64,000 bases of DNA from Luteolibacter luteus (lineage in GTDB: Bacteria; Verrucomicrobiota; Verrucomicrobiia; Verrucomicrobiales; Akkermansiaceae): assembly GCF_012913485.1 (NCBI RefSeq), contig NZ_CP051774.1, forward strand, positions 5,518,001 through 5,582,000. The letters are read 5' to 3'. A program made the translations under genes and the position numbers. The notes under the pieces were generated by a model. That model was not told where the DNA came from and did not search any database. It saw only the letters and a program-made list of their open reading frames with translations. Below are positions 18,584-46,601 of this stretch, in pieces; within the stretch, counting starts at the first letter, position 1; the number at the start of each line of letters is the position of its first letter.

Positions 18584-18639
18584 GGAAGCATCCCGGAAGG
18601 GATGGGAGATCCTCCGGGTTTGCGTAGTGCAGGAAAGCT

Positions 18640-18668
18640 TTGTGAATTGGCAAGGATACCTGTAAGAT
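18640..18668 (+). promoter_or_regulatory. Possible sigma-70-like promoter
   Basis: TTGTGA (18640-18645) and TAAGAT (18663-18668) stand 17 nt apart, ending 15 nt before the AI-2E permease start. The leader would be very short. A small CATCCC-GGAA-GGGATG hairpin lies upstream at 18588-18603. Confidence 0.35.
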
Positions 18669-18683
18669 CGCCTCACCCTCCAG

Positions 18684-22220: not shown

Positions 22221-25200
22221 TCACTTCAAGACCACCCGATAGAAGGCCTTGCCGGCTGGTGGATACGGATCGGTGAAGCTGGCTGTGCCCGCCGTGCCGG
22301 GGACCGTGGCAATGTCTTGCCAAGTTCCGGTCAGCGAAGTGTTACGCTGGATGGTGAAAGTCACACCGGTCACGCTGGGCCACTGGATCTGGCCGGTTGT
22401 GCTACGCGTTGCTGCGAAGCGCGAGGTCCCGCTATTCGGGATCAAGCCAAGGCGATACTCGGTGAGGTTGTCGGTGCCGTCCTTGTCGTAGTCGCCGGTT
22501 TCGGTTTCGCCGAGGCCTCCGAAGTATTGCATTTCCCACGCGTCATCGAGGGCATCCCCATCCGGCCCGGCAACAAAGAGGAACTGGCCGGCCGTGCGTG
22601 CGACCGAGCTGATGCGCACTTCATCCAGCACGCCGAGGAAGCTATCGGTGCTGCCACCGTTGCTCCGGCCTTCATTGCCGATCGTCAGATCGCAGGCGGT
22701 TGAAACCAACAGATCGTTGGTCATCTGCAGCGAGGCAAGCTGGCTGGCTTGGTTGCGGGATGGGTCCAGCAGGGTCCAGTAAAGCTTGAGGTTGTCCGCG
22801 GTGGCTTCGGTTCCGCTATAGGTCACGGCCACATGGTACCAGCCGCCTTGGGCGATGGCATTGGTGGCTGCTCCGATCGGTAGCGGCGCGGTCAGCGATT
22901 GCACTGCCGTTGCGCCGTGCAGGTTGATGAACTCCAGCAGGGGAGCGGTGCCGGCGGTATTTCCCGGGCCGCCGATCGGGACGATGCGGAATTGCCAGAC
23001 GCGGCCAGCATCGGCGTCGTTTTCACCGGTGACAATCTGCATTGGCACCACCGACGCCGGAGCTGCCGCAGGATCGAAGTCGATGCGTACGATTGCCTCA
23101 AAGGTGAAAGCTCCATCCGCCCCCGCATAGCTGAAGGTGGCATCGTCCGTGGTGTCTGCTGCCAGCGGCAGTGCCGAAAGCACGCCGCCGGTGGCAGTGC
23201 CGCGGCCAGCCGAGGGATTGAGTCCCGTGCCGAAACCCGCGAGGGAGGGCGTCCACATCATTGCTCCATCTTGAAGGCTATTGAGGGAAAGCCGCCCGGC
23301 CGCAGCATCGGCTGCCGGTGCCTTCACCTCATCAAGGTGCCAGAGATGCAGCGTATCCGAATCCACGGTGTAAGGTTGGAAAACCTCGGTTGTGTCGACG
23401 ATTCCATCGCCGTCGATATCGGTGATCGTAGAGCTGGCTTGAGTCGGGTCCGACCCGGCATTTTGCTCCTGAAGGTTCGTGCCCGAGTCCCCATCCGGGT
23501 TGCCGCTCGCAAGCTCGTCGAGATCGGAAAAGTAGAACTGCTCCCAAGAGTCGATCAGCTGGTCGCCATCGGTATCGAGCGGCGTGAAAACCGCATTCTT
23601 GGGACTGGTTCCAGCAGCACGCTCCGCGACGTTCGAGAAACCATCGCTATCCGGATCGTCCGTGCCATTGAAACGTGAGATGATCGCGAAAAGGTCTTCA
23701 TCGCCGGCTTCTTTGAACCAGAACACTTCCCATCCATCCGGCAGGCCGTCGGCATCGGCGTCGAAGGAAGAAAGGATGTCCATCGGGTCGGTGCCATCGA
23801 GGAACTCCGAGGCGTTGTCATAGTAGTCGCCATCGGGGTCGTCGGTGCCGTCGTATTTCGCGAGAATGGTTGCGATTGATTCTCCCGCGTTGGAGCGGAA
23901 GTTCTCCACTTCCCATTCATCCAGCAGGCCGTCCCCGTCGGTGTCGGTGGCATTGACCACCTCCGGGCCAGCATCATGGAAGAACTCGCGCTCCTCAGGG
24001 GTGAGCGCGCCGCTCCAGATCCGCATCTCATCATAGCGGGCATTCGCGACATTGTCGCCGGCCCATTGGGAGCGCCCGAGGTAATTGAATGTGTCGTTGA
24101 GGAAGGCGAGTTGGTTCGTCGTGCTAAAAGTGCCCTGGGCGCTCCCCAGATCGGAACCATTGGCCGGATTGGAATACCAAGTGACCAAGGTGCTGCTGTC
24201 CGCGCCGGCACCGGGCTCGATCGTCATCACGATGTGGAACTGCGTGCCGACGGTGTAGGGCTGGTTGGTGTTCGGGCTATTGGTGGTCGCGGCATCGATC
24301 CACTCGACCTGATCGGTCGCCGCATTCGTGCCCTGCGTCCAGGACATGAAGAGATACTCGGTGGTGCCACTGCCAAAATCGAAGATCCGGGCCCAGTTCT
24401 GCACCGCTACTTGTGTGGCCCAGAATTCCAGAGTGACAGGGGTCTTCTTGCCTTGCAGCAGGTTTGTGCCGAGCTGTGCGTAAGCCGAGGTTCCGCTCGC
24501 TCCACCCACAAGCAGGAGATCGGTTGCGGACAAGGTGGATGATCCGCCGACCAACGGATCATTATCCGGATCGATCACCTGCGCGTGGCTGGTGCCGACG
24601 GAATCATTGAGGTTGCCATTGAAGCTCCAGCGATGGGCGAGCTTTGCCTTTGCCGGAGTCCATGCCGCATCATTCGGGTTCGTGTTCGCCAGGAACTCCT
24701 CGATGTTCGAGAAGGTGTCATTGTCCGCATCGGCGTCCGGAAGGCGGGATGTATTCCCGAAGTAGAAGATTTCCCAAGCATCGGCCATGCCGTCGCCGGT
24801 TCCGTTTTCGGTATCCGGGAAGGAATTCCGGTCGAGCGGATTGGTGGATGCGGTGTATTCCTCAAGGTTGGTCGCGTAGTCGCTGTCCGCATCTCCAGCA
24901 CCGGTCTGGTTGAGATTGCCGAAGGTGCCAAGCTCCCAGAGGTCGGGCAGGCCGTCATTGTCGCCATCGCCGGAGACCACGCTGAGCACGCCGCTGCTCT
25001 CGCTGAAGGCGTAGACGTTATCCGCGGAGATCCAGAGATTGTTGGTCTTGGTGAAGCCGGGGATATTGAAGGTGGCGCCGAAAGTCTCCGTGAGCGTGGC
25101 GGTATTCACCAAGGTCCAGGTGCTGCCGGAAGTGGTGCTGGCACCCGTCAGGTTCAGATTGAAAGTACCGTTGAAGGCAACGTTGCCCGCTCCCGAGATA

Positions 25201-25805
25201 CTGTTGTTTACGCCGCTGGCTCCGATGGTGAAGGCCAAGGCGCTGGTTTCCGCCGCAGTAACGAAGCCCGTGACGGTAATGTTACCAGTGTGGGTATTGG
25301 TGCCGGAGATGGTGGTGCGATATGTCGCATTGCCACCGGTGAAAGTCAGATCACCGGTGCCGCTGATCGGGGCGGTGATGCTCACCGGACCTTGCGTGGC
25401 TCCAATGCGCGATCCGGTGCCGGTAACATTGAGATTACCAGCGAGAGTGAAAGTTTCCGTGCTTCCCTGGAGGTGATCGATCAGTCCGCCCGAGAGGATC
25501 AGATTGTTGACGGTGATGATGTGCGAACCGGCGGTCTTGTAAGTCAGGTTGCCGGTGGTCGTGCCGATTGTGAGGGAATTGCCGGCAAAGGCGTAGTCAC
25601 CTGCCGTGGCCGGGGTGCGCAGGCGCTGAATGTTCACGATGTAATCGTTCTCCGCGGACGGGGCGGCGGCATTGCTCCAGTTTAGGGCGGCGTTGAAGGA
25701 ACTCGTATTGAGCGCGTCGGCAGCATTGAGCGTGACGCTGGCGCTCCGGGCGTGCGGGGCGAGGGCAAGGGCCAGGCCGGGAATGAGACAGATCTTCCGA
25801 TTCAT
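22221..25805 (-). CDS. Giant secreted LamG/thrombospondin-3 protein (1194 aa)
   Basis: A signal peptide (ICLIPGLALALAPHARSAS) is followed by a passenger-like beta-helix (residues ~20-270) rich in Gly, Thr and Asn, similar to autotransporter-associated repeats. TSP3-type calcium motifs (DGDNDGLPDLWE, TDTDGDGLLDEWE) lie at ~275-385 and ~615-810. A first LamG domain is at ~390-615 (LAHRWSFNGNLNDSVG, TLEFWATQ, ARYDEMRIWSGALT), and a second, of another type, at ~815-1075 (LHLWHLDEVK, GGWYHVAVTYSG, NLKLYWTLLDP, VLDEVRISSVARTAGQF). The C-terminal ~60 residues (FTIQRNTSLTGTWQDI...FYRVVL) are a beta-domain common in verrucomicrobial exoproteins. There is no PEP-CTERM tail. It is probably cell-surface or released, binding carbohydrate. 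The LamG2 module recurs in the neighbouring giant and in the sensor kinase at 32840-35389. Confidence 0.85.
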   Translation of the reverse strand: MNRKICLIPGLALALAPHARSASVTLNAADALNTSSFNAALNWSNAAAPSAENDYIVNIQRLRTPATAGDYAFAGNSLTIGTTTGNLTYKTAGSHIITVNNLILSGGLIDHLQGSTETFTLAGNLNVTGTGSRIGATQGPVSITAPISGTGDLTFTGGNATYRTTISGTNTHTGNITVTGFVTAAETSALAFTIGASGVNNSISGAGNVAFNGTFNLNLTGASTTSGSTWTLVNTATLTETFGATFNIPGFTKTNNLWISADNVYAFSESSGVLSVVSGDGDNDGLPDLWELGTFGNLNQTGAGDADSDYATNLEEYTASTNPLDRNSFPDTENGTGDGMADAWEIFYFGNTSRLPDADADNDTFSNIEEFLANTNPNDAAWTPAKAKLAHRWSFNGNLNDSVGTSHAQVIDPDNDPLVGGSSTLSATDLLLVGGASGTSAYAQLGTNLLQGKKTPVTLEFWATQVAVQNWARIFDFGSGTTEYLFMSWTQGTNAATDQVEWIDAATTNSPNTNQPYTVGTQFHIVMTIEPGAGADSSTLVTWYSNPANGSDLGSAQGTFSTTNQLAFLNDTFNYLGRSQWAGDNVANARYDEMRIWSGALTPEEREFFHDAGPEVVNATDTDGDGLLDEWEVENFRSNAGESIATILAKYDGTDDPDGDYYDNASEFLDGTDPMDILSSFDADADGLPDGWEVFWFKEAGDEDLFAIISRFNGTDDPDSDGFSNVAERAAGTSPKNAVFTPLDTDGDQLIDSWEQFYFSDLDELASGNPDGDSGTNLQEQNAGSDPTQASSTITDIDGDGIVDTTEVFQPYTVDSDTLHLWHLDEVKAPAADAAAGRLSLNSLQDGAMMWTPSLAGFGTGLNPSAGRGTATGGVLSALPLAADTTDDATFSYAGADGAFTFEAIVRIDFDPAAAPASVVPMQIVTGENDADAGRVWQFRIVPIGGPGNTAGTAPLLEFINLHGATAVQSLTAPLPIGAATNAIAQGGWYHVAVTYSGTEATADNLKLYWTLLDPSRNQASQLASLQMTNDLLVSTACDLTIGNEGRSNGGSTDSFLGVLDEVRISSVARTAGQFLFVAGPDGDALDDAWEMQYFGGLGETETGDYDKDGTDNLTEYRLGLIPNSGTSRFAATRSTTGQIQWPSVTGVTFTIQRNTSLTGTWQDIATVPGTAGTASFTDPYPPAGKAFYRVVLK

Positions 25806-26262: not shown

Positions 26263-29200
26263 TTAACCGCCCTCGACGTATTCGATCCGCCAGAAGCGCC
26301 GGGATCCCTGAGGATCGAGAGGGGCTGTGAACTGGATGGGGGTGCCGGTGCCTTCCCGGGTTTCCTCAAGCTGCCAATCCGTTAGATCCGAGCTGCTCCA
26401 CAAACGATAGGACCAGCTTGGTTCGGAGATGCAGCGGATCTGCACCTGACCTCCATTTAAGCTTACCTGCGGTTGCGGCTTGTGGGCGAAGTAGGTCTTT
26501 GCGTCCCACTCGAGGATCGAGAAGCGCGAAGCGGTGTTCGCAGAAGTGGTGTAGCCTTCCCCAGTTGCGGCTTGGTAGAGGAAGTGCAGCTGGCGGTCTC
26601 GATCCCAGAGTTCGTTGTCGATGATTGTCTCGTAGTTGCCGAGATTCTCGGTGGTAAGATCGAATTCGATCCAGACTAGGCGTTCGGGGTCTTCGGCTTT
26701 TGGCAAGCTGTGGACGATCGTGATGCCATTGCTGCCCTGATTGTCGCGATAGGCGACGATGATGCGGCCGCTATCATCATGTACGACGGTCGGGCGGCCG
26801 AGATTGCGGACGAAATTCTCATCATACTTCGTGCCTGTGGGATCGATGGTCCGGTTCGAAACAGGACGCTTCTGCCAGACGCCATTGTCATCGCGGAAGA
26901 CGACCATGTATTGCCGCCGATAGTTTCCGGCGGCTGTCTCGGGTGCCCACCATGAAGCGATCACCGGATTGCCATTCGCATCCAAGCAAGAGCTTGCCTG
27001 ATTGATCAGGCTGCTGCCTTCCGGGATGGCCATGATCTGCTCGGCCTTGGTGGCCGGATCACCGCTTTCTCCATCGCGCGAGATCGGAAGCGTATAAGCC
27101 GTGCCATCGTGGTGCTGCCAGGTCAGGCCGGCATCGGTGGATCTCCCGAAGGCGAACTGGTTGTTCGTCTGATAGCCGTTTTCGTTGGCAGGGGAGTCTC
27201 CGCCCACCGGCTCATAGCGCCAGCACCAGGTGAGCAGGAGGTCATCGCCATCCGGCCCGCCAAGCTGCGGCATATTGGGATAGGCATTGTAGTTCGGTGT
27301 CCAACCGGTGCCCTTGATGAAAGGCAGCTGGATGTTTCCGCTGCGGTGGACATTGTCCCAAGTCTTCGTCGCGGTGTCATAGCGGTTGAGGAAAGTGTCG
27401 CCATTTCCGGATGCCACCTCGCGGAAGAGGAAGAGCAGGTCCCCATCGGGAAGCTTCAGGAATTGCGGGTAGGTCACCGTGTCCTCCCGTCCGGTCATGG
27501 TGCTATCCGGACCAAGGACGATCGGGGCGGTGCCTGTCACAGGGGCTACGCTGCGGGAGTAGTGGAAGGCATCGCCATGCATGCCCCAGGAGACGTGCAT
27601 GTAGCCATCGCCATCGATGCCGTAGCTGATCACGTCATGGCCGTCCGTGATCGTGTTCGCGGTGAAGGTCGGATGGCGGAAGACCTCCCATTCAGAGGAG
27701 CCAAGAGCGCGACGGCCGATCCAGATGGTGTTGTTGAACTTCGCATTCGCATCGAACTGATGGCGTCCATACCAGGTCACGAACTGCTGGTTGCCCACGG
27801 TCTTCAGGGAAGAACGGACGAAGGAAACCGTATTGATCGCGGACGCGCCGCCGTAGCCGAACTCGCTGGTAGCGTGATCACCATCGTCCAAGGGAACGAG
27901 TCGAACGGCCGTCCCGGCGGGACGGGATTCCGCGTCGGCGGGGTTCGTGCCGGCCTCCCATTCCTGAAGATTGCCGAAGCCGTCCTTGTCCGGATCCGCT
28001 CCCCCATTGTGACCGAGGTGGCTGAAGTGGCTCAATTCCCATGGGTCCGGCAACCCATCGCCATCGGTGTCGGTGGAAAGCGAGGCACGGTTGTTCGGTG
28101 CAGAGTTGTTCGTGAGTTCGGTAGCTGTGGATTCCCCGTCCCCATCAGGATCGCCGGAAGCTGTCGCGGAGAGATTGCCGAAATAGCGCATCTCTTCTTG
28201 ATCCGGAAGGTCGTCGCCATCGATATCACCGGGAATGGAAGCCGTCACCGCCGGGTGAGAGCCAGCAGCGAACTCCGCGCCATTGCTGTAACCATCGCCA
28301 TCCGTGTCGGAATTCGCGGTCTCATCCAGATCTCCGAAGCGCCCGATCTCCCAAGCATCCGGTAGCCCGTCCGCGTCACTGTCCGCATAGGACACAGAGT
28401 CCGGCCCGAAGACGTGAAGATGCTCCCGCTCCTCCGCACCCAGCGCGCCATTCCAGATGCGGCACTCATCATAGCGGGCATTTGCCGTAGCATCCGCCGC
28501 GAACATCGAGCGACCGAGCCAGTTCACCGCGTCGTTGAAATCGAGCGGGGTGTTGGTCGTTTCAAAACTTCCCCGGGCTCCGCCGAGAGTCGCTGCTGCA
28601 GCGGGAGCCGCATACCAGGTGACACGGGTGCTGCCCGCGGAACCGGCTCGAGGCTCGATGGTCAGGACGATGTGGTAAGGCGTGCCGAGAACGTAGGGTG
28701 CATTGCTGTTGTTGGTCAGGCTCGAGACTCCGTCCAACCACCGGACCTGGTCGTTTGCGAGCGTGGTCCCTTGGGTCCAGGACATGAAAAGATACTCGGT
28801 GGTGCTGCTGCCGAAATCGAAGATGCGACCCCAGTTCCGGGTGGCGATCTGTGTCGCCCATAGCTCGATGCTCAGCGGGGTCTTCCGGCCGCCGAGCAGG
28901 TTATTCCCCAGCTCAATGTAGGAAGCCTCCGAGCGAACACCACCTTGGAGCAACACGTTGCTGTCCCCTAGCGCGGCTGCTCCCGTGGCGGGATTGGAGT
29001 CGGGATCGATCAGCTCGGCGTGCTCCGTTCCGACGCTGTCTTCCAAGTTGCCATTAAAGCTCCAGCGGTGGGCCAGCAAGGATCTTGAAGGGCTCCATCC
29101 GGCTTGGGTGGGATCGGTGGTGGCATCGTGTTCCGCCTTGTCGCCGGCTCCGTCTCCATCGCTATCGGCAGACCCATCCCGGCTCAGGTTTCCGAAGTAG

Positions 29201-30417
29201 AAGAGTTCCCAGCCGTCATTGAGTTGATCGCCATCGGTCTCAGGCCAGTCGATCGGGTTCACGGGGCTACTGTGCGCCGCTTCCTCAAGTGAATTGCTCG
29301 CGAAGTCACCATCCGGATCGCCCTCACCATCCTGTGCGGTGAGGTTGCCGAAGTGGTGGATCTCCCACTCGTCTTGCAGGCCATCGAGATCCGCGTCGCC
29401 GGGATTGGAGTCCGGGTTGTCCGGTGCGGTTCCCGCCACGAACTCCGCCATGTTGTCGTAGCCGTCGCCATCCGGATCACCGTTTCCATCCTGGCCGAGA
29501 TTCCCGAAATGGAGGGCTTCCCATGCGTCGGAAAGACCGTCGCCATCGAGGTCATCATTGGCAAAGAGGAAGGCGCTCGCGCTGCGGACTACCTTGCTGA
29601 TCCGGACTTCATCGATCAGCCCTTGCAGGCCTTCGCCCGAGGCTCCGCGCGCCTCATTGCCGATGACGAGGGGGCCGGTGACGCTCGCAACCGTGTTTTC
29701 GCTGGTCGAACTCCCGATCGCGTTTGCCTGCGCCGAGGAGGGAGCCAGCTTGGTCCAATAGAAGGTGGAGGTATTCGTGCTGCCATCGAAGGACAGGGCG
29801 ACGTGGAACCACTCGTTCGCGGCAAAGCGATGCGGGCCGGTGGTCGGGATGGCGGCGGAGATCGCGCTGCCGCTGCCCGTGATGAAATTGAATTCGAGCG
29901 CACCTGTCGTCCCGATGCGGAACTGGAAGCCGCGATTCGACATCGAACTGTCGGTCGAGATGATCTCGCGCGAGGCACCGGTGATCGACGGCAGGTTGAC
30001 CAAGGCTTCCAAGGTGAAGGAACCATCGGCACCGGCGATACTGCCCTGAGCAATAGCGTCCGGACTCGTAGTGGTGCCGGGTTGAAAGCCGCCCGACTGA
30101 TTCGCATCGAGGCCGAGCCCGACGGTGCTGGTGGCAATGGAGGCGGCCCTTCCAAACGCTGCGGAATAGGTGGTGGCCCCGAGGATGGTGGTATTTGCCG
30201 GTTGTGCAGCGGTGGCCGCGGCCGGCACGGCGGACCCGCTGTAGGGAAGTAATCCCGCGGCAGAGCTGCCTGAGTTCGCGGCGTTCGTCGCATCCACCGC
30301 CTCATCCAAGTGGAACAGGTGCACGGTCTCCGTGTCCGCCACATAGGGTCCTGTCACGGCTGCGAAGGCGGGAGTGGTGACCAAGGCGAGGAGAAAGGGC
30401 AGTCCGGGGCGCAGCAT
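26263..30417 (-). CDS. Giant secreted LamG/TSP3 protein with BNR_4 propeller (1384 aa)
   Basis: A signal peptide (FLLALVTTPAFAAVTG) comes first. LamG domain A (~25-285) has VHLFHLDEAV, EWFHVALSFDG, FYWTKLAP, IGNEARG and LIDEVRISKVVR. TSP3-type repeats (~287-440 and ~680-850) follow a recurring pattern DxDGDGLxDxWExxxFGNL. LamG domain B (~447-677, LLAHRWSFNGNLEDSVG) is close to LamG1 of the neighbouring giant. Residues ~850-1310 look like a BNR_4 beta-propeller (TWYGRHQFDANAKFNNTIW, DGHDVISYGIDGDGYMHVSW, TVTYPQFLKLPDGDLLFLFR). BNR_4 is the fold of ulvan lyases of families PL24/PL25 and of many uncharacterised proteins; the HxH-containing stretch fits but does not prove lyase activity. The end is an SSTDL-type beta-domain (YRLWSSSDLTDWQLEE). 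It has no PEP-CTERM tail. Confidence 0.82.
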   Translation of the reverse strand: MLRPGLPFLLALVTTPAFAAVTGPYVADTETVHLFHLDEAVDATNAANSGSSAAGLLPYSGSAVPAAATAAQPANTTILGATTYSAAFGRAASIATSTVGLGLDANQSGGFQPGTTTSPDAIAQGSIAGADGSFTLEALVNLPSITGASREIISTDSSMSNRGFQFRIGTTGALEFNFITGSGSAISAAIPTTGPHRFAANEWFHVALSFDGSTNTSTFYWTKLAPSSAQANAIGSSTSENTVASVTGPLVIGNEARGASGEGLQGLIDEVRISKVVRSASAFLFANDDLDGDGLSDAWEALHFGNLGQDGNGDPDGDGYDNMAEFVAGTAPDNPDSNPGDADLDGLQDEWEIHHFGNLTAQDGEGDPDGDFASNSLEEAAHSSPVNPIDWPETDGDQLNDGWELFYFGNLSRDGSADSDGDGAGDKAEHDATTDPTQAGWSPSRSLLAHRWSFNGNLEDSVGTEHAELIDPDSNPATGAAALGDSNVLLQGGVRSEASYIELGNNLLGGRKTPLSIELWATQIATRNWGRIFDFGSSTTEYLFMSWTQGTTLANDQVRWLDGVSSLTNNSNAPYVLGTPYHIVLTIEPRAGSAGSTRVTWYAAPAAAATLGGARGSFETTNTPLDFNDAVNWLGRSMFAADATANARYDECRIWNGALGAEEREHLHVFGPDSVSYADSDADGLPDAWEIGRFGDLDETANSDTDGDGYSNGAEFAAGSHPAVTASIPGDIDGDDLPDQEEMRYFGNLSATASGDPDGDGESTATELTNNSAPNNRASLSTDTDGDGLPDPWELSHFSHLGHNGGADPDKDGFGNLQEWEAGTNPADAESRPAGTAVRLVPLDDGDHATSEFGYGGASAINTVSFVRSSLKTVGNQQFVTWYGRHQFDANAKFNNTIWIGRRALGSSEWEVFRHPTFTANTITDGHDVISYGIDGDGYMHVSWGMHGDAFHYSRSVAPVTGTAPIVLGPDSTMTGREDTVTYPQFLKLPDGDLLFLFREVASGNGDTFLNRYDTATKTWDNVHRSGNIQLPFIKGTGWTPNYNAYPNMPQLGGPDGDDLLLTWCWRYEPVGGDSPANENGYQTNNQFAFGRSTDAGLTWQHHDGTAYTLPISRDGESGDPATKAEQIMAIPEGSSLINQASSCLDANGNPVIASWWAPETAAGNYRRQYMVVFRDDNGVWQKRPVSNRTIDPTGTKYDENFVRNLGRPTVVHDDSGRIIVAYRDNQGSNGITIVHSLPKAEDPERLVWIEFDLTTENLGNYETIIDNELWDRDRQLHFLYQAATGEGYTTSANTASRFSILEWDAKTYFAHKPQPQVSLNGGQVQIRCISEPSWSYRLWSSSDLTDWQLEETREGTGTPIQFTAPLDPQGSRRFWRIEYVEGG

Positions 30418-30471
30418 GATTGCCGGGAAGCATGGCAGCCTTGCGGTGCTGCTACACCCGAAAGCAGCCCG

Positions 30472-30489
30472 CTCCCCAAAAATGGGGAG
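30472..30489. promoter_or_regulatory. Inverted repeat in a divergent promoter region
   Basis: CTCCCC (30472-30477) and GGGGAG (30484-30489) flank a 6-nt A-rich centre. It lies 55 nt before the LamG/BNR_4 gene and about the same distance from the divergent gene at 30543, so it could control both. Confidence 0.45.
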
Positions 30490-30542
30490 ACTTGGATTGC
30501 CTTTTGAAGCTTATCTCACAAGCTATCTTCGAAAGACCGCGG

Positions 30543-31349
30543 ATGACCCGATCAAAGACATTGCTCTTCTTCCTGGTGGCCGCGGGGCTGGGTCTCGGGA
30601 TCCTTTGCGGACGGGCACTTCGCGGGGAGGCGATGGATGAGGATATGGCCACGGGGATCGCCGGGAAGACCAGCAAGCGGATGCGTGAAACAGGACCTTC
30701 CGGGAGGGAGAATGCCGGAAAACCCGTTCCCGAAGGCGTGCCCTCGGAGGGCTTCGTGGTTCCTCCCCAGGCGATGCGGCGTATCCAAGTGGAACTGCTA
30801 TCGGGGAGCTCGCTGAACAAAAACGAATGCCGCATGCTAGGGATGACGGAGGCACAGATCAAGGAAGTGGATCTGATGGTGAGCGATGCGGTGAAGCGGT
30901 GGCGCGAGCGTGAAATGGCCACGGCCAAGCGCATTCCCTCGCAGAAGGGAGATGTTCTTTGGTTTATCCCCGCTGCGGGGCCTGCGGTGGCGGAGCAGGA
31001 GTGGCTGGGCGTCACCAAGAAGCTGGTCGAGATCGGCGGTCCGGACCTGGAGCCGCTGCTGACCTACCGTCTCACGGTGGGCAACAGTCCGAGCCATCGC
31101 AGCAACTCGGGTGCAGGCATGCTCAATCTTCTCACTGCGGGATTTGGCACCTTGGATCGCTTCATCAAGATCCCGGCGGATGGTTCCTATCCCCAGGTGA
31201 TCGATGTGTTTCCCCATCGCGTGAAGGAGGTGCCCGTCGATGAATCGATCTTCGAGCAATTCGAACATAAGCTGAGCATCGATTGGCGGAGCTACATTTC
31301 TCCAGCTGACCATGCGGACCGCTTTTCCCACCTTCCGGCCACAAAGTAG
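30543..31349 (+). CDS. Membrane-anchored unknown protein A (paralogue of B)
   Basis: I start at the ATG before TRSKTLLFFLVAAGLGLGIL, which is an N-terminal membrane anchor or uncleaved signal; 268 residues result. The next ~60 residues are low-complexity linker. A region from ~80 to 150 (MRRIQVELLSGSSLNKNECRMLGMTEAQIKEVDLMVSDAVKRW) aligns clearly with the following gene (LAERLQIMALSEMKVNRTELAILGFTDAELDQLQELI). The rest is alpha/beta with no family I know. It is divergent from the LamG/BNR_4 giant and 6 nt before its paralogue, and lies beside the LamG sensor kinase, so a role in the same surface system is possible. Confidence 0.7.
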   Translation: MTRSKTLLFFLVAAGLGLGILCGRALRGEAMDEDMATGIAGKTSKRMRETGPSGRENAGKPVPEGVPSEGFVVPPQAMRRIQVELLSGSSLNKNECRMLGMTEAQIKEVDLMVSDAVKRWREREMATAKRIPSQKGDVLWFIPAAGPAVAEQEWLGVTKKLVEIGGPDLEPLLTYRLTVGNSPSHRSNSGAGMLNLLTAGFGTLDRFIKIPADGSYPQVIDVFPHRVKEVPVDESIFEQFEHKLSIDWRSYISPADHADRFSHLPATK

Positions 31350-31355: not shown

Positions 31356-32186
31356 ATGTCCGTGCGTCGTCCGGTTTTCATTTTCCTCGTCGCCTTTCTG
31401 CTTGGTGGGGTGATCGGCTTTGCCGGCTACTCGTCCAAGAAGAACCGTGGGGAACCGGATGGTTCCCGGAGCGGTCATGCGGACGAAAAGGATGACTCTT
31501 TGAGTGATGGCCGCGCGAGCGAGACTCGCCTTACGCCGACTCGCAAGGAGGCTCCGGCGCTTCGAGTGGATGAGAATGGGAATTATCTCCTCCCGGCGGC
31601 TCTCGCGGAGCGGCTACAAATCATGGCGCTGAGCGAGATGAAGGTGAACCGCACCGAGCTGGCGATCCTAGGCTTCACCGATGCTGAGTTGGACCAATTG
31701 CAGGAGCTTATCAGCGAAGTCTGCGAGAAATGCTTTTCCCGCGAGGAAGCCGCGGTGAAGGATTTCACGCGAGGGGAGACAGAGTTGGTTCGTTTGATTC
31801 CCGGAGATCGATCCTTCGCGGAGTCCGTGAAAAATGATGCATTGGAAGGAATGCGTCGCATCGCGGGCAGGAAGGCACCTTTGCTCGAGACCCGGATGCT
31901 GTCCGAACTCGAGAGCCTCACCATGGATTTCGGACGCACCGACTACTACCAGCGCGTGGGGCTTTCCGACTCATCTTCCAATGGACTGGAAATCGAGAGT
32001 GTCCTGATTTCCCAGCCGATGCAGGAGGGGGGCTTGATGCCTGAGCCGGGGGACAGCTTTCAAGGTTACAAGACTCGCTACCGCTATGGGGCCCGGCGGC
32101 GCTACGGCTACGGTGGCGAGGTCCCGGAATTTCTCCGCCATCTGATCACGAAGGAAGAGTGCGAGGCACTGCTGCCGCGGAAGTGA
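31356..32186 (+). CDS. Membrane-anchored unknown protein B (paralogue of A)
   Basis: The 276-residue product has an N-terminal membrane helix (PVFIFLVAFLLGGVIGFAGY), a charged linker to ~65, and a helical core (~80-130) homologous to protein A. The C-terminus is rich in Tyr, Arg and Gly (YKTRYRYGARRRYGYGGEV). It starts 6 nt after gene A and is co-transcribed. It converges on the response regulator, ending 6 nt before that gene's stop. Tandem duplication followed by divergence is the simplest origin. No function can be assigned. Confidence 0.7.
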   Translation: MSVRRPVFIFLVAFLLGGVIGFAGYSSKKNRGEPDGSRSGHADEKDDSLSDGRASETRLTPTRKEAPALRVDENGNYLLPAALAERLQIMALSEMKVNRTELAILGFTDAELDQLQELISEVCEKCFSREEAAVKDFTRGETELVRLIPGDRSFAESVKNDALEGMRRIAGRKAPLLETRMLSELESLTMDFGRTDYYQRVGLSDSSSNGLEIESVLISQPMQEGGLMPEPGDSFQGYKTRYRYGARRRYGYGGEVPEFLRHLITKEECEALLPRK

Positions 32187-32192: not shown

Positions 32193-32831
32193 TCACTTCC
32201 CTCCCAGATACTTCACGACCGCCTCCGTACGGGTGCGCACGTGCAGCTTCGCGTAAATGTTGTGGAGGTGGGTGCGGACGGTTTCAACGCCGATTCCAAG
32301 GTCCCAGGCGATCTCCTTGTAGAGTCCGCCTTTAACCAAGAGCTCGAGGATCTGCTTCTCACGCGGAGTGAGGTTGTGATCCTCGTTCTTTGCGGGAGGC
32401 GTTTTCTGGAAATGCTGCACGACCTTGCGGGCGATGGCGCTCGACATCGGGGAGCCGCCTTGCAGCAAATCTTCAAGGCATTCGAGCAGCTTTGCGGGAG
32501 CATCGCGTTTCAAGAGGTAACCTGAAGCGCCTGCAGCCAGTGCGTCGTAGATCCGGTCGTTGTTGTCGTAGACGGTAACCATCAGAACCTGCACTTCGGG
32601 ATGCATTTCCTTGAGTTTCGCGACGCACTCGATGCCCGACATGCCGGGGAGCTGGATATCCATGAGCACGACCTCCGGGCAGCTCTCCTTCATCGCTGCG
32701 AGCGCGGGCTCGGCAGCGGGGTAGGCGGCCACGAGCTTCCATTGCGGGGAACTGGAGAGAAGGTCTGCCAAGGTTTCGCGCAAGAGCATGTCGTCTTCGA
32801 CCAAGGCAATCGTATGAGCGGGTTCGGACAT
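32193..32831 (-). CDS. NarL/FixJ-type response regulator
   Basis: With the start at the ATG before SEPAHTIALVEDDMLLRE, the product has 212 residues. The receiver domain (~7-120) holds the acidic pair EDD, the phospho-acceptor Asp58 in VVLMDIQLPGMSG, and Lys in YLLKRDAPAK. The LuxR-type HTH follows (LTPREKQILELLVKGGLYKEIAWDLGIGVETVRTHLHNIYAKL). It begins 8 nt after the stop of the LamG-bearing histidine kinase and is surely its partner. Its targets are unknown; the adjacent exoprotein genes with C-tract/G-tract palindromes are candidates. Confidence 0.93.
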   Translation of the reverse strand: MSEPAHTIALVEDDMLLRETLADLLSSSPQWKLVAAYPAAEPALAAMKESCPEVVLMDIQLPGMSGIECVAKLKEMHPEVQVLMVTVYDNNDRIYDALAAGASGYLLKRDAPAKLLECLEDLLQGGSPMSSAIARKVVQHFQKTPPAKNEDHNLTPREKQILELLVKGGLYKEIAWDLGIGVETVRTHLHNIYAKLHVRTRTEAVVKYLGGK

Positions 32832-32839: not shown

Positions 32840-35389
32840 CTACTTTGGAAGTTCGGGGAGCCGGCAAATCAGCACGATAGAGGTTCCGTGGCCGGGTGAC
32901 GAGTCGAGAGCGTAGCTGCCGCCGATTTCACGGATTCTACCCGCGGTATTGCCCAAGCCGTGGCCATCGGGATGGGACCTCGGATCGAAGCCGCGGCCGG
33001 TATCGCGGATCATGAGGGCGAGGGTCTCGTCCTCAAGCCCGAGCGAGAGGAAGACCTCGCAGGGGCCGGCGTGCTGCAGGACATTATGGAGGGATTCCTT
33101 CACCGCGAGGGCAATGTGATGGCGGTACTCCGCGCTGAGAGGGCGTGCCGGTAGCTCCGCCGGGATATCGAGGCGGCAGCGGACCGGTGAGTCGCGGAAC
33201 ATTTCATCCGCGAGGCGGGTGAGGTGGGAGCCGAGTTGGTCGAGGGTGTCATGCGCGGGATCGACGGCCCAGACGAGATCATCCATCGCGGAAACGAGTT
33301 CGCGGGCGGCACCGGTCATCTTGTCGAGGTGGCGCTGGGCCTTGGCGGGATCCTTTTCCCAATCCCGGCGGGCGAGTGCCGCGGTAAGGTTTAGTACGGT
33401 AACTCTCGTACCAAGGTCATCGTGCATGTCCCGGGCGATGCGGCTGCGGTCCTGCTCGAGTGCATTTTGGAAGCGCAGCCGCTCGAGACGTTGCTTCGAA
33501 CGACGGCGGAGGTGGCGGAAGGCGGCAGCGGCAACGAGGGCGACCGAACCTGCGGCGACCGCTGGTCCGAACCAGACGCGCTGCCAGAAGGGGGGATCGA
33601 TATGAATGGGGAGAGCAATCATTTCGCCGGTGCGCTGGTTCGCGCCTGCGAGGCCGATGGCGCGGAACGTGTAGGCCCCGGGCGGCACGTTGATGTAGGT
33701 CGCGCGGTTCAAACGGCCGCCGATCACGTTGAAGGCTTCGTCCCAAGAGAGGACGAGGGTGCGGCTTGCTGCGGGAGGGCCATTCAGCTTTTGCACGGAG
33801 GTCCATTCGCCGTGTTTCATCTGATCACCGTCGACCAGCGCAAGGGCGGGTCCATCGCTACGGATCGAAAGGTAAGCGATGGCAGGATCGCTGCCATCGC
33901 GGCGCCAGCCCGGCGGCGCGTCGCCGGGGGAAGGAGTGAGTCCATCGATGGTGAGATTGCCGTTTTGCCAGAGCGAGGCTTCTTCTTCGCCCGGAACGGA
34001 GACGGCGATGTTGTCCACCATCAGCAGGCCGGTGGTATCGGGTGAGCCGGAGCTGACGGAAAGCCGCAGTGCGACGGCTTCTGCGGGCAGGTAGATCGGC
34101 TCGACCCGGCGGGTCATTTTCGAGTCGTCGAACGTCGTTTCCCAGCCATCGCTGCGACCGACGGCGGAGAAGACGGCTTGGGAGATCACTTGGTTTCCCG
34201 CGTCGAGTGCCTGGCAGGTGAGGCTCATCCCGCGCTCGGTTTCCTGCCAGCGTTCGTCGATGCCCTCGAGCTGGCAGCGAAGCTTGACGTCTGCATCGAG
34301 TGGTTCGGGGCTGAAGCCGAAGTCGAAGTCAAGGCGGTGAAGGCCTGAGCCGAGACGCAGCACTTCACCGGGTTTGCCGGAGAGATTGGCGGAGGAAGCA
34401 TCGACCAGCACGCTAGCGAGCTTGAGGTCGAGCCGCTCGGGGATCGCGGGTTTTGCGGCGGTGGCATCCTTGGCTCCGGGGGCGATCCGCTTTCCGGGTG
34501 CGACGAAGAAGAAGTCGGTGGGATGGCGGGCTACGCCGCTGATGCGCACTTCATCGATGAGGCCGGGGAAGGGCTCTCCTTCGGCATTGCCGTTGAAGCC
34601 GCGTGCTTCATTGCCGATGGCGAGATCACCGGTTTTGCCGTTGAGGTCATTGGAAAGAGTGCCGCGGCCGATCAGATTTGCTTCCGCGGGATGGGTGTCG
34701 ATCCGTGTCCAGTAGAGCTTGAGGTTGTTGGTGATGCCCGCGTTGCCATCGTAAGTGACGGCGACGTGATACCATTGACCGGTCGCGATGGCATGGGGTC
34801 CGGTGGTCGGGATCGTGGCCAGGCCTCCACCGGTGGCACCGCAGTGAGGCAGCGCCATGAAGGTGAGGAAGCCTTGTTTCTCGATGCGGAAATTGAAGAT
34901 GCGGTCGTCGCCATCGCCGTCCATCGAGAGGAGACCCGAGGCGATCACTCCGGCTTCACCGGGGAGGATCTCCGGCTTGATCAGCAGTTCGTAGGTGAAG
35001 GCACCGTCTTTCCCGAAGTAGCGGAAGTCGGCCCTCACGTTGTCCTGGTTTCCGGAAACGAGGTGGGGGGCTTCCGCGAGGATGGCCCCTACCAGGTTCG
35101 ACTCGCCGGGGACGCCTCCTGCGTTCGAGCGAAAGGACACGGCTGTCCCCAAGCCCGGCAGTGAGGGCTGGCCTGCGAGCGCGCCATTCAGCAACCCACG
35201 AAGCGGGGTGGGGGATGGTCCGGCATCGCTGAAGGGTATGGTTTCCTCATCGAGATGCCAGAGGTGCAAGGTGGCGGAATCCACGTCGTTAGGCGTGTGG
35301 AATTCCGCCGCGGGGGCCAGCGGGCAGCCACTCGCCACGAGGGCCGCGAATCGCAGGATGCGGCGGATCATCGCAGCGGGGAATGGCAT
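32840..35389 (-). CDS. Sensor histidine kinase with extracellular LamG domain and split Y_Y_Y domain
   Basis: The 849-residue protein has a signal sequence (FAALVASGCPLAPAAEF), then a LamG module at ~30-295 (ATLHLWHLDEE, GQWYHVAVTYDG, NNLKLYWTRIDTHP, IGNEARGF, LIDEVRISGVARHPTDFFFVA) closely related to those of the two giants. Residues ~330-390 look like the first half of a Y_Y_Y domain (LDFDFGFSPEPLDADVKLRC, LEGIDERWQE); its second half (RATYINVPPGAYTFRAIG, PPFWQRVWF) appears only at ~560-605. The ~170 residues between look like a CBM-type jelly roll (LLMVDNIAVSVPG). One transmembrane helix at ~605-627 precedes a HisKA_3 domain with His656 in ARDMHDDLGTRV, an N box (VKESLHNVLQHA) and G boxes (IRDTGRGFD, GHGLGNTAGRI). 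It senses something outside, probably a glycan, and signals to the response regulator just downstream. Confidence 0.9.
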   Translation of the reverse strand: MPFPAAMIRRILRFAALVASGCPLAPAAEFHTPNDVDSATLHLWHLDEETIPFSDAGPSPTPLRGLLNGALAGQPSLPGLGTAVSFRSNAGGVPGESNLVGAILAEAPHLVSGNQDNVRADFRYFGKDGAFTYELLIKPEILPGEAGVIASGLLSMDGDGDDRIFNFRIEKQGFLTFMALPHCGATGGGLATIPTTGPHAIATGQWYHVAVTYDGNAGITNNLKLYWTRIDTHPAEANLIGRGTLSNDLNGKTGDLAIGNEARGFNGNAEGEPFPGLIDEVRISGVARHPTDFFFVAPGKRIAPGAKDATAAKPAIPERLDLKLASVLVDASSANLSGKPGEVLRLGSGLHRLDFDFGFSPEPLDADVKLRCQLEGIDERWQETERGMSLTCQALDAGNQVISQAVFSAVGRSDGWETTFDDSKMTRRVEPIYLPAEAVALRLSVSSGSPDTTGLLMVDNIAVSVPGEEEASLWQNGNLTIDGLTPSPGDAPPGWRRDGSDPAIAYLSIRSDGPALALVDGDQMKHGEWTSVQKLNGPPAASRTLVLSWDEAFNVIGGRLNRATYINVPPGAYTFRAIGLAGANQRTGEMIALPIHIDPPFWQRVWFGPAVAAGSVALVAAAAFRHLRRRSKQRLERLRFQNALEQDRSRIARDMHDDLGTRVTVLNLTAALARRDWEKDPAKAQRHLDKMTGAARELVSAMDDLVWAVDPAHDTLDQLGSHLTRLADEMFRDSPVRCRLDIPAELPARPLSAEYRHHIALAVKESLHNVLQHAGPCEVFLSLGLEDETLALMIRDTGRGFDPRSHPDGHGLGNTAGRIREIGGSYALDSSPGHGTSIVLICRLPELPK

Positions 35390-35464: not shown

Positions 35465-36259
35465 TCAGGCACGGCGGCGACGCATGATGCCGAGCAGGCC
35501 GAATGCTCCCAGAAGGGCCGCGGACGAGGGCTCGGGAACGATGGCGAGATTGTCCATGAATCCCACGGTTTGGTCATGCCGGACGTCCGCATAGAAGCCG
35601 ACGGAAGTTCCCATCAGGGCGGAGGTGAAGGTGAATTCGTTGCCTGCGGAAGCACCGTTCAGATCGAGGGTGACCTTTGTATCGGAGGTGGTGTAATAGC
35701 CGACCTCGAAGGAATTCGCCGCGGTGCGGGTGATGAAGAGTTGGGCGACGAGGTTCTCCGTGGTTGCTGCGGTGAAACTCGTGACCGGTGCGGCATTGTT
35801 TGCGTAGCCCGCGCGGATCGAATCCTGGTTTGGACGCACCGAGATGTAGAGGTAGCTGCTTGAAGCCCGGACATCGCCGCTTGTTCCGGTGGTGAGACCG
35901 GCGGGTGTCTCGGTGGTGCCGATCGCGATCCCGAAGTCATTCACGATGTTCGCAGTGGCGAGATTGCTGGTGATCGTCGTGTCGATCAGCAGGGTTTGCC
36001 CCACTTCCAAGCTGTGGTCGTCGCGGAGGAAGAGTACTTGCTCGGGGACATTCGATACACCGCCGCTGACCGTGGTGGAAAGGGTGCCGCCCGTGGCCGA
36101 GAAAGAGATGTTGGACGCGGTGTTGTTGTCGAGCACGCGGGTCAGCGTGTATTCGGACAGGCTCTCGTCGTTGAAATTGTCGATCACCACGGCGCTGGCA
36201 CTGCCGATCAGAAGCGGTGCCATGGCCAGGCAGGTCAGGGAGAGAAATCGGGAGGTCAT
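35465..36259 (-). CDS. PEP-CTERM protein, beta-sandwich type
   Basis: The 264-residue product has a signal peptide (FLSLTCLAMAPLLIGSASA) and an all-beta body of unknown family (VVIDNFNDESLSEYTLTRVL, EVGQTLLIDTTITSNLATAN, FGIAIGTTETPAGLTTGTS). The C-terminus is a textbook PEP-CTERM signal: IVPEPSSAALLGAFGLLGIM followed by RRRRA. It should be exported and handled by an exosortase encoded elsewhere. A CCCC-n-GGGG repeat lies ~100 nt upstream. It sits between the rhamnosidase and the LamG kinase on the same strand. Confidence 0.85.
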   Translation of the reverse strand: MTSRFLSLTCLAMAPLLIGSASAVVIDNFNDESLSEYTLTRVLDNNTASNISFSATGGTLSTTVSGGVSNVPEQVLFLRDDHSLEVGQTLLIDTTITSNLATANIVNDFGIAIGTTETPAGLTTGTSGDVRASSSYLYISVRPNQDSIRAGYANNAAPVTSFTAATTENLVAQLFITRTAANSFEVGYYTTSDTKVTLDLNGASAGNEFTFTSALMGTSVGFYADVRHDQTVGFMDNLAIVPEPSSAALLGAFGLLGIMRRRRA

Positions 36260-36412: not shown

Positions 36413-38185
36413 TTAGCCTTTGATCGAAAGCTTCCAGCGGCCTTCTCCCAAGCCGAGAATCCGCCGGCCGTTCTTGTCGCCCACCGGCGTGGCTTCAGCG
36501 GGGCCTTGGACGGAAACTTCCCCGACATGCGGGACATGGAATTCCGCGACGGTCCCCGCGGGCACGGTCAGCGAGGCCTGCCAAGCCGAAGCGTCCCTGC
36601 CTTGGATTTCCAAGAAGATCGGGCCCTTCGGCGTGGGCATCTTGATCCGAGCGTTTTCAAGCGATGCCGTTTGAGGCTTTACCCGGAAACGCCTGAAGCC
36701 GGGCTCGAGAGGTTCGATCCCCATCAGCTTTCGTGCGATCAGGTTTGATGGCGCAGCTCCCCATGCATGGTTCCAGTCGAGGTTCGGTTTCAGGGATGGA
36801 TCCCAGGCTTCGAGCGTGATCGTGGAGCCGACCTTTTCGCTCATGTTCAGCCACGAGCGCTGGCCGCGGGAAGAGAGCAGGGATAGCGCGTATTCCGACT
36901 CGCCTGCATCGTAGAGCGCATCCAGCAGGAACTGTGCGCCATAGACACTACAGGCCATGTCTTTCGTTTTCAGGAAAGCTGCCACCTTGGGCACGCGGTC
37001 TTGCGGCACCAGGCCCATCGCGAGAGGAAAGAAATTCGCATGGGCCGAGGCATGGTTGCTACCGAGACCGTCGACGTAGCAACCGCGGGCTTCGTCCCAG
37101 AGCCTGGCGTTCACGCCCTGCCTGGTTGCTTCGGCCGCCGCTGCGAATTCCTTCGCGTCCGCCGCTTTGCCAAGTTGCAGCGCGATCTTCTCCAACAAGA
37201 CCAGCGCGCGGTAGTGGAAGGCGGTCACCACGGTCTTCACCTCAGGCTTCATGTCGTAGCCATCGCGCTCGCCAGCAGGCCAGTCCACGATGTCGGTGAT
37301 GTCGCCCTTGTTCCATCCTTGGAAGAGTCCTTCGGGCGTGCGGCGTGTGATCATCGCGCGGGCCTTTAGCGTGGCGTAGTTCTTCCGCAGCGAGCCGTCA
37401 TCGCCCGACCACAGGAAGTCGTGCCAAGCTAGGATCACCGATTGCAGGCGCCACTCGGTCGGCCAGGTCGGCTTCTCCAGCAGATACTCGTGGGTCAGCC
37501 GCGCCGTGTCGTAGCGCGCATCGAGGCAATAGTGGGAGAGCTGGTTGATCAGTACGTCCGCTTCGTAGGGCTTCCGCTCGCGATCTCCATCCACATAGAG
37601 GCCCATGAAGGTGGTTGCCTTGATGCTATGCTTGCAGAGGTCCCACACCGCATTGAGTTCGGGGCTGGAACTCTCGAAGGCGGATGCCTTTTCATCGAAG
37701 GCGACACTCCACGAGACCCGCTTTACCTGATCGGCAGAAAAACCGGGAGGAGCTCCTTCAATTTCCGCATAGCGGAAAGGCATCACCTCCTCCTTGCACT
37801 CCTTCGGAAGATCCAGAAAGCCCTCCTTCATCCAATTCGGCGGACTCCAGCTCAGGCGCGGGGAGACCGGGCCGCGGGGGTTCAGAGTCACCTCATGGCG
37901 TTGGTAACGGACGGTGCCAGCGGGTTTGCGATTGATGCTGCGGTCTCCCGAAAGCGTCTCACCGAGATGGATGGTCATGCGTCCTTTCTCCCGATTGCTC
38001 GCAGGTGTGATCGAGATATTGCCGAAAGCCGCCTTGCCGAAATCGATGAGCCAGTGGCCATTCCCGAGTTGTTCGGCCTTCACCGGGCTTTCCGTGGTGG
38101 ATACCACGGGGCTGCGTTCCGCCGCGGAGAGGGGAGAAAGTGGCAGGAGAGCGCAGCAGAGGAGGGCACGCATGGCGACGGACAT
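36413..38185 (-). CDS. Alpha-L-rhamnosidase-like glycoside hydrolase (GH78-like)
   Basis: From the ATG before SVAMRALLCCALLPLSPLSAAE the product has 590 residues with a signal peptide; a longer frame upstream has no good start. Residues ~35-160 form a beta domain (HWLIDFGKAAFGNISI) and ~180-500 an (alpha/alpha)6 barrel with FMGLYVDGDRERKPYEADVLIN, the position of the acidic catalytic loop in bacterial alpha-L-rhamnosidases, and WPTEWRLQSVILAWHDFLWSGD. NLDWNHAWGAAPSNLIARKLMGIEPLEPGF marks the usual end of the barrel, before a C-terminal beta domain. The enzyme would release L-rhamnose from glycans in the periplasm or outside. Its family neighbours and RhaM make rhamnose the likely product; activity on other sugars is not excluded. 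Confidence 0.82.
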   Translation of the reverse strand: MSVAMRALLCCALLPLSPLSAAERSPVVSTTESPVKAEQLGNGHWLIDFGKAAFGNISITPASNREKGRMTIHLGETLSGDRSINRKPAGTVRYQRHEVTLNPRGPVSPRLSWSPPNWMKEGFLDLPKECKEEVMPFRYAEIEGAPPGFSADQVKRVSWSVAFDEKASAFESSSPELNAVWDLCKHSIKATTFMGLYVDGDRERKPYEADVLINQLSHYCLDARYDTARLTHEYLLEKPTWPTEWRLQSVILAWHDFLWSGDDGSLRKNYATLKARAMITRRTPEGLFQGWNKGDITDIVDWPAGERDGYDMKPEVKTVVTAFHYRALVLLEKIALQLGKAADAKEFAAAAEATRQGVNARLWDEARGCYVDGLGSNHASAHANFFPLAMGLVPQDRVPKVAAFLKTKDMACSVYGAQFLLDALYDAGESEYALSLLSSRGQRSWLNMSEKVGSTITLEAWDPSLKPNLDWNHAWGAAPSNLIARKLMGIEPLEPGFRRFRVKPQTASLENARIKMPTPKGPIFLEIQGRDASAWQASLTVPAGTVAEFHVPHVGEVSVQGPAEATPVGDKNGRRILGLGEGRWKLSIKG

Positions 38186-38487
38186 GGAACGGATTTCTTC
38201 TCTCACGGGCAGGTCTTTTACTTGGCGGCAGGCCCTTCCGGGTGCGGGCGACTGCGTTCGAGCCAAACATCATTCACCTGCGTCGTCTGCCGGGAATAAG
38301 GCCAGCCACACGAAAGGGGGAACAAGTCTTCGCTGTGGCCCATCGTACCCCTTCTTTGCCGGAGGACCGACGGTCCCGATACAGGATTCTCCATCAAAGC
38401 GAAAATTCGGCTTTCCGACTTCCAGAATTCACGGTAAATCGCCGCCCCCGGCGCGGTCCGTCCCGCTGGGAATCCATCCAAGGTGCC

Positions 38488-45975: not shown

Positions 45976-46601
45976 AAATCCTGATCGCTGACGACCACGA
46001 ACTCATCCGCCATGGATTGAGGGGGCTGCTGCGAGATCATTTGCGCGACGTCGATATCACGGAAGCTTCAAACGCGAAGGAAGCCGTCTCCGCGGCAGTA
46101 AAGGGGGGATGGGACCTCGCCCTGGTGGATATCAACATGCCGGGCCGCAGTGGCCTGGAGCTGATCCGCGATCTCAAGCAGATGCATCCGACCCTCCCCG
46201 TGCTGGTAGTCAGCGCGCACACGGAGGAGGATTTCGCCCTGCGAGCCCTCAAGCTGGGAGCCGCTGGCTATGTCTCGAAGCAGAGTGCCGCCGATGTACT
46301 GGTGGGTGCGGTGAAGAAGGTTCTCGCGGGCGGACGCTACGTTAGTCCCGCTGTCGCCGAGAAACTCGCCCAAGCTGCTGCCGAAGGATGGTCCGGTACG
46401 CCGCATGAGAATCTATCCCACCGCGAGATGCAGGTCCTGCAGATGATTTCCACGGGTAAGACGATCAAGGAGATCGCGGCGGAGCTGGCGTTGAGCGAGA
46501 AGACCATCGCGACCTACCGCAGCCGCATTTCCGAGAAGCTGGGGCTTTCCACCAATGTCGAGCTGACCCGATATGCGATGCAACATGGCTTGGCCGAGTG
46601 A
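45972..46601 (+). CDS. NarL/FixJ-type response regulator (2)
   Basis: The 209-residue product has a receiver domain with the acidic pair ADDHE, phospho-acceptor Asp53 in LALVDINMPGRSG and Lys in GYVSKQSAADVL, followed by a LuxR HTH (LSHREMQVLQMISTGKTIKEIAAELALSEKTIATYRSRISEKL). The start overlaps the kinase stop by ATGA. The target is unknown. It converges on the ornithine cyclodeaminase homologue. Confidence 0.95.
   Translation: MKILIADDHELIRHGLRGLLRDHLRDVDITEASNAKEAVSAAVKGGWDLALVDINMPGRSGLELIRDLKQMHPTLPVLVVSAHTEEDFALRALKLGAAGYVSKQSAADVLVGAVKKVLAGGRYVSPAVAEKLAQAAAEGWSGTPHENLSHREMQVLQMISTGKTIKEIAAELALSEKTIATYRSRISEKLGLSTNVELTRYAMQHGLAE

Follow-up and report, generated by a model that had tools for sequence, protein, structure and literature searches.

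Domain layout of the kinase

The stretch analysed here (the window) comprises 64,000 nucleotides of Luteolibacter luteus (Verrucomicrobiota, Akkermansiaceae; contig NZ_CP051774.1, positions 5,518,001 to 5,582,000) and carries, in an intact open reading frame (ORF) of the reverse strand, the gene for a sensor histidine kinase of 849 amino acids (aa). The predicted protein runs from a signal peptide and a LamG module through a Y_Y_Y domain and a transmembrane helix to the kinase part (Table 1), and we are highly confident that the Y_Y_Y domain is split by an inserted, circularly permuted jelly roll. HisKA_3 with an HDD motif, HATPase_c and an adjoining receiver-GerE protein make up a two-component system of the HisKA_3/LuxR type, in which His656 is, going by what is known of the HisKA_3 family, presumably the phosphorylated residue.

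The initial annotation had placed LamG where propeller repeats usually precede Y_Y_Y domains. Pfam agrees with this: Laminin_G_3 scored 60.5 bits against a cut-off of 27.6, and no Reg_prop repeat was listed for the whole protein at E-values up to 10. Parts of two large secreted proteins, encoded at 22221-25805 (-) and 26263-30417 (-), are 41% and 39% identical to the LamG region of the kinase (query residues 24-298 and 3-297, respectively). Besides a paralogous kinase, these two were the only LamG-only matches in the L. luteus genome; the sensor thus has this module in common with possible target enzymes.

A Y_Y_Y domain interrupted at one loop

The first segment of the Y_Y_Y domain closes with LEGIDERWQETE at residue 385 and the second opens with GRLNRATYINVPPG at residue 558, so that 172 residues (386-557) lie between them; the break falls where the initial annotation had put it, with about 170 residues between the halves. 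The clearest evidence that this insert lies within a single Y_Y_Y loop is the abutment of two matched stretches on chains of solved structure. A profile of 19 family members matched four distinct PDB sequences (3ott, 3va6, 3v9f and 4a2l, the first three presumably of Bacteroides origin) in two stretches each. About 175 profile positions separate the stretches, yet the matched chain residues abut, at 704/706 (3ott/3va6), 735/736 (3v9f) and 738/742 (4a2l). Some individual stretches score poorly, as low as 5.1 bits, but order and abutment were the same in four of four.

Against the whole kinase, the Pfam Y_Y_Y model (PF07495; cut-off 26.6 bits) found only a fragment, at residues 561-577 (profile positions 28-44 of 65, 16.1 bits, E-value = 0.011). 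Excising residues 386-557 raised the score from 19.4 bits (uncut region of 329 aa) to 26.8 bits (join of 112 aa) and widened the match to profile positions 13-44. Six control cuts at shifted positions gave 15.1, 16.1, 22.4, 22.8 and 20.8 bits and, in one case, no match; the 22.4-bit control still covers both halves, because just 15 residues of the insert remain in it. The gain is modest for this kinase alone, being 4 bits above the best control, and larger in several relatives. Removal of the insert increased the score in all 10 members tested (out of 19 in alignment A2), and seven of them then passed the cut-off, compared with two before. The uncut sequences of loci L003, L037 and L039 contain two Y_Y_Y stretches each, the better of which covers the first half in L003 and L037 (profile positions 2-27 and 2-29) and the second half in L039 (28-51); L003 encodes a LamG-less relative of 566 aa. 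Thus the two flanks, for which the initial annotation had suspected a match to Y_Y_Y, behave as one Y_Y_Y domain in two segments, interrupted at one loop.

A continuous, ordinary domain between residues 300 and 605, with the split an artefact of weak Y_Y_Y matching, is scarcely conceivable: Pfam alone does leave the Y_Y_Y domain of this kinase under the cut-off, but the excision gains, the shifted-cut controls and the structural models described below all speak against it, and the two abutting stretches on the solved Y_Y_Y structures contradict it. In practice, Pfam-level searching overlooks this class of split kinases. The L. luteus genome also encodes a full-length kinase paralogue (47%) and a LamG-less relative, both split in the same way, and a Pfam Y_Y_Y search of this genome at E-values up to 0.001 found one kinase and missed all three split ones.

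Circular permutation of the insert

The beginning of the insert reads like the end of a module resembling a carbohydrate-binding module (CBM), GW...R.E...P..A..LRLS...G...VDNI, and the remainder reads like the beginning of such a module, W.NG.....GW.R.G..PAIA...LAL.D.D...W.S....LSW.EAFN. Accordingly ordered profiles were compared: A7, built from 14 inserts put back into natural order, and A9, built from natural-order domains of secreted proteins. A7 and A9 aligned end to end over 170 columns (pairwise hhalign E-value = 1.5e-40), whereas profiles left in native order aligned with the natural-order domains over 79 and 88 columns only, that is, over one half. As judged from these sequence profiles, the halves of the insert stand in reversed order, C-terminal half first, relative to the homologous secreted domains. 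Two unrelated halves were considered and ruled out, since the restored order aligns as one domain. The initial annotation had the interrupted Y_Y_Y domain and the jelly roll right and missed the circular permutation, the existence of a whole family with this layout and the lack of a match to this LamG in 46 of its 72 recognized members.

In the L. luteus genome, A7 matched the three split kinases, each with the C half before the N half. A class-wide search (at most nine candidates scored per genome) gave matches in 34 of 384 genomes, nearly all of them half-matches in kinase-sized frames; unbroken natural-order matches in other proteins were found in genomes G707 and G712. In G707, four tandem natural-order copies occupy one 849-aa frame, a fifth copy belongs to a PEP-CTERM protein of 224 aa, and a sixth opens an 863-aa secreted protein; all of them share a 20-kb stretch with a split kinase. 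Among 168 loci, the C-N order with a kinase part was recognized in 71 distinct proteins, and without a kinase part in one (L157, a 391-aa frame). At L062 (G006:C5, about 18132-18751), a split kinase occupies two overlapping frames with the break inside the insert, through either decay or a sequencing error. Eight distinct proteins, all lacking a kinase part, have the natural order: four match the kinase-derived profile, and the other four match A9 only, at 17-32 bits.

A permutation requires that the old ends be close together. Jelly rolls of the CBM type have a calcium site that links residues close to both ends, Glu122 and Asp351 in BT2081 (PMC2954218), and by analogy the old ends of the insert would lie close together as well.

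The lengths of the junctions vary little among the 72 distinct permuted sensors. In all 72, 21 residues separate W549, which belongs to the insert's last strand, from G571 of Y_Y_Y, and between W381 of Y_Y_Y and M388 of the insert there are six residues in 64 and seven to nine in the remainder. The linker that fuses the old ends ranges from 25 to 43 residues. Such constancy of the junctions, alongside fused ends that drift, is what an important mechanical link would predict.

Possible relation to CBM4/9 modules

The likeness of the insert to CBM4/9 (PF02018) lies in a module that opens with N-x-x-F-E ... W and closes with ...IDDLSV, and in its natural-order relatives: A9 aligned over 143 columns (pairwise E-value = 1.4e-7, probability 94%) with the CBM_4_9 domain of L162, which Pfam recognizes in a glycosidase-like protein (E-value = 8.5e-29). 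The evidence for homology to recognized CBM4/9 members is mixed: A7 is strongly similar to the natural-order domains, these are moderately similar to a CBM_4_9, and A7 is weakly similar to it directly. Unlike CBM4/9, the insert has its halves reversed (C half then N half in all 72 sensors), its new ends in the central hairpin and its place inside another domain, and it is not recognized by Pfam.

Predicted structures

A model of residues 300-612, based on 13 alignment rows, had a pLDDT of 70.4 and a pTM of 0.54. Its top structural match was 1ajk (Z = 9.6), which covers model residues 86-256, namely the insert, and is the only one of 998 chains with Z of 8 or more. Ranks 2-50 were, by title, mostly Ig/Fn3-like chains (Z = 6.5-7.7) whose alignments begin at about model residue 11-21, end at 296-306 and comprise 78-111 residues; because this number equals the size of the flanks, we take them to match the flanks alone, although Z values of this size can reflect a common arrangement. 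The model is therefore consistent with a Y_Y_Y sandwich assembled from two segments and a separate jelly roll, as the initial annotation had suggested.

The insert alone (residues 380-562) was modelled better than in this context, with a pLDDT of 81.7 and a pTM of 0.81. It again matched 1ajk, an engineered, circularly permuted glucanase (Z = 9.7, 140 residues aligned, 3.5 Å), followed by 1ajo, another engineered glucanase permutant (Z = 6.2), and by concanavalin-type lectins in ranks 3-50 (Z = 5.1-5.6); the lower of these matches may indicate a common arrangement only. None of the 50 structural matches displayed for the insert is a CBM4/9 chain by title, which is no evidence either way because an order-dependent aligner would give unpermuted modules low scores. 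Foldseek gave, at E-values up to 0.001, five matches for the region model, all RbmA with query TM-scores of 0.10-0.11, and none for the insert model.

Distribution and history of the split kinases

The layout is not an oddity of one gene, which the 72 distinct permuted sensors (71 with a kinase part) rule out. The LamG of the present kinase was matched in 26 of them, with frames of 702-982 aa (the 702-aa frame is clipped at a contig end). The other 46, with frames of 391-700 aa, showed no match to this LamG at an E-value of 1e-5; since their inserts begin 77-230 residues into the stop-to-stop frame, they have little besides the split domain outside the membrane. The genome searches covered Verrucomicrobiota, with matches in at least 41 of 195 Akkermansiaceae genomes and at least 12 of 387 genomes of a phylum sample; these are lower bounds because few candidates were scored per genome (8 to 16 in several searches). 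A scan of named genomes with narrow patterns gave 12 loci, all from Verrucomicrobiota by title, in Haloferula, Luteolibacter and uncultured Akkermansiaceae/Verrucomicrobiaceae. The initial annotation knew of no described kinase with this layout, and we found no published description in the open-licence literature, which excludes most subscription journals.

In a midpoint-rooted tree of 79 rows, six natural-order domains of G707 fall between the long and the short kinases, in a group with the long kinases (96/92), whereas the natural-order domain of L111 falls on a long branch inside the short kinases with weak support (88/72). The position of the G707 domains would fit a single permutation event if the root lay there. 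Both placements would also suit a reverse history, in which the kinases keep the ancestral order and tandem duplication of kinase inserts gave rise to the secreted proteins of G707. However, single complete natural-order domains exist, in proteins of 224 aa and 327 aa, and the natural order is that of the Pfam-recognized CBM_4_9 in L162, so we regard the reverse history as improbable. Either history leaves the kinase inserts and the secreted domains permuted relative to each other.

Gene neighbourhood

The features of the locus are collected in Table 1.

Table 1. Domains of the split kinase and neighbouring features (positions in the window)
Feature	Position	Strand	Basis
Sensor histidine kinase, 849 aa, LamG + Y_Y_Y interrupted by permuted jelly roll	32840..35389	-	intact ORF
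Signal peptide region, residues 1-28	35306..35389	-	by eye from sequence
LamG (Laminin_G_3, ConA-like) module, residues about 36-298	34496..35284	-	Pfam 113-290, E 2.7e-16
Y_Y_Y first segment, residues about 319-385	34235..34435	-	profile matches and region model
Insert first part, residues 386-467, homologous to C-terminal half of natural-order domain	33989..34234	-	profiles
Insert second part, residues 468-557, old-ends linker, then N-terminal half of natural-order domain	33719..33988	-	profiles
Y_Y_Y second segment, residues 558-603	33581..33718	-	Pfam and profile matches
Transmembrane helix, residues about 606-628	33506..33574	-	by eye from sequence
HisKA_3 dimerisation/phosphoacceptor domain, residues 648-712, His656 in DMHDDLG	33254..33448	-	Pfam
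HATPase_c, residues 758-843	32861..33118	-	Pfam
LuxR-type response regulator (receiver + GerE)	32193..32831	-	likely start ATG 32831, longest ORF from 32867; Pfam
PEP-CTERM surface protein, directly upstream of kinase	35465..36259	-	Pfam
Alpha-L-rhamnosidase-like protein	36413..38266	-	Pfam Bac_rhamnosid6H 1.5e-46
Secreted 1384-aa LamG + TSP3 + BNR_4 protein, BT3686 (rhamnosidase)-like body	26263..30417	-	Pfam, NCBIfam, PDB search
Natural-order relatives of insert, tandem and single, secreted proteins	L117 = G707 contig 71: 9413-11959, 12330-13001, 5320-7908

Of the 12 named loci, 11 have a relative of the LuxR-type regulator behind the kinase; the remaining locus is clipped by a contig end. 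The PEP-CTERM gene lies between the kinase and the gene for the rhamnosidase-like protein, which we take to be of the GH78 type; the rhamnosidase-like gene is probably a target of the kinase. Across the 6.41-Mb genome it is the one strong match to PF17389 (159 bits), with two others at 25.4 and 23.2 bits. The BT3686-like body of the secreted 1384-aa protein scored 240 bits (3e-71) in NCBIfam, under the cut-off of 700; its PDB matches were 5muk, titled neuraminidase (4.7e-52), and rhamnose-glucuronate lyases (about 1e-21). Sensing of a glycan, perhaps of rhamnose-bearing polymers, is therefore a plausible function.

For the 12 named loci, 10 proteins from the neighbourhoods were compared with Pfam; for the short class of kinases, the neighbourhoods in G707 and G712 were covered. 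A rhamnosidase-type gene is near the kinase in L070, L076 and L078, the last of which also has arabinofuranosidase-type genes; L075 has a sulfatase, and PATR proteins occur in L072, L073 and L079. Directly upstream of the kinase, ends resembling PEP-CTERM were recognized by eye in L072, L073 and L076, those of L072 and L073 in proteins that also have PATR repeats. These neighbours, together with the PEP-CTERM protein directly upstream of the L. luteus kinase and the natural-order domain in a PEP-CTERM protein near the split kinase of G707, would fit, as the ligand, some protein of the surface or component of the matrix, such as a PEP-CTERM or PATR protein, instead of a free glycan. However, CBM-type modules usually bind sugars, and the rhamnosidase-, arabinofuranosidase- or sulfatase-type genes near the kinases of L070, L075, L076 and L078 point to glycans, so such a ligand seems distinctly unlikely.

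Proposed signalling mechanism

The interruption, the reversed halves, the near-fixed junction lengths and the adjoining LuxR-type regulator can be read from the sequences, and they suggest how the kinase may work. In the periplasm, a CBM4/9-type jelly roll, circularly permuted, would sit in one loop of Y_Y_Y and bind a glycan or similar ligand. Binding would alter the distance or angle between the two ends of the insert, which run into the two strands flanking the loop, and would thereby strain the Y_Y_Y sandwich; the transmembrane helix may relay the strain to the HisKA_3 dimer, and the phosphorylated regulator would then control surface and rhamnosidase genes in the vicinity. In sensors that have it, LamG may help to capture the same or a linked polymer. 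We consider such a switch, with a glycan-type ligand, rather likely. A fuller scenario is possible, and we put it forward tentatively: a slice of a tandem CBM-like array, consisting of the C half of one repeat and the N half of the next, entered a kinase Y_Y_Y loop once, giving a natural insertional switch, a permuted module held at its two ends by the transmission domain. In L. luteus this switch would sense rhamnose-bearing glycans, and it would belong to a class largely hidden from the Pfam Y_Y_Y model. In G707, a four-repeat array and a single-domain PEP-CTERM protein are indeed found near a split kinase.

Several observations weigh against the proposed glycan-binding switch. Compared directly, A7 and CBM_4_9 are only weakly similar (E-value = 0.007, probability 5.6%), and on present sequences the tie of the insert to a Pfam-recognized CBM_4_9 appears to run via the bridge between A9 and L162. 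The term 'CBM-like' in the initial annotation was right in kind, but Pfam listed no CBM family for the insert either in native order (the kinase) or in restored order (0 of 14 members). Compared with the sequences of the PDB, the restored insert matched two plant RPS4 entries only, at chance level (E-value about 1). The confidence of the 300-612 model is moderate. Natural-order domains matching the kinase-derived profile occur in just two of the 34 matching genomes (384 searched, at most nine candidates scored in each), and a rhamnosidase in only three of the 12 named loci (flanks of up to 5 kb, some shorter).

Near-fixed junction lengths would equally suit a purely structural insert, a rigid spacer that stabilises Y_Y_Y or the kinase dimer while LamG or a partner protein does the sensing; the similar LamG parts in two nearby secreted proteins fit this as well. 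However, the insert begins 77-230 residues into the frame in the 46 sensors without a match to this LamG, a relative of it opens the 863-aa secreted protein of G707, and a distant relative is the CBM_4_9 of a glycosidase-like protein. A structural role is thus unlikely, and we prefer the ligand-binding switch.

Comparison with known systems

For BT4663, a scissor-like closing has reportedly been proposed. In the solved periplasmic Y_Y_Y sensors (3ott/3va6, 3v9f and 4a2l/4a2m, the last being BT4663), Y_Y_Y is likewise the last periplasmic domain, with the kinase below it (PMC3243724). The propeller repeats of the large Y_Y_Y sensors are predicted to form two beta-propellers and precede a Y_Y_Y domain that measures about 120 aa; all phosphorelay domains usually lie within one chain (PMC3243724). 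Unlike these large hybrid sensors, the present family has LamG, or nothing detected, where the propellers stand, an interrupted Y_Y_Y domain, and the receiver and DNA-binding domain on a separate LuxR-type protein.

Jelly-roll circular permutants are known, both natural, such as concanavalin A, and engineered, such as 1ajk and 1ajo, the top structural matches of the insert. However, the known ones are free-standing enzymes or lectins, whereas this insert sits inside a sensor. It resembles engineered insertional switches in which a circularly permuted protein is placed inside a binding protein (reported, for example, in PMC3265398): a permuted domain is connected through both of its ends with a second domain, so that binding in one changes the other. 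Those switches are artificial, and here the roles of host and guest are reversed, the guest being the likely binder.

The coupling of ligand binding to kinase control in Y_Y_Y sensors is known from few cases. Because a probable binding module is tied at both ends through near-fixed junctions, the coupling is directly testable in this family by changing one linker. If the proposed switch is true, it is a natural parallel to the permuted biosensor insertions of engineers, and unpermuted relatives of the insert persist in secreted proteins.

Other features of the window

Two adjoining genes, 30420-31349 (+) and 31356-32186 (+), encode proteins that have no Pfam match and, judged by eye, a hydrophobic stretch at the N terminus. 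The two products are weakly alike (22%, E-value = 1e-8), the former being the sole other match of the latter in the genome. A second pair of a HisKA_3 kinase and a LuxR-type regulator is encoded at 44980-46601 (+).

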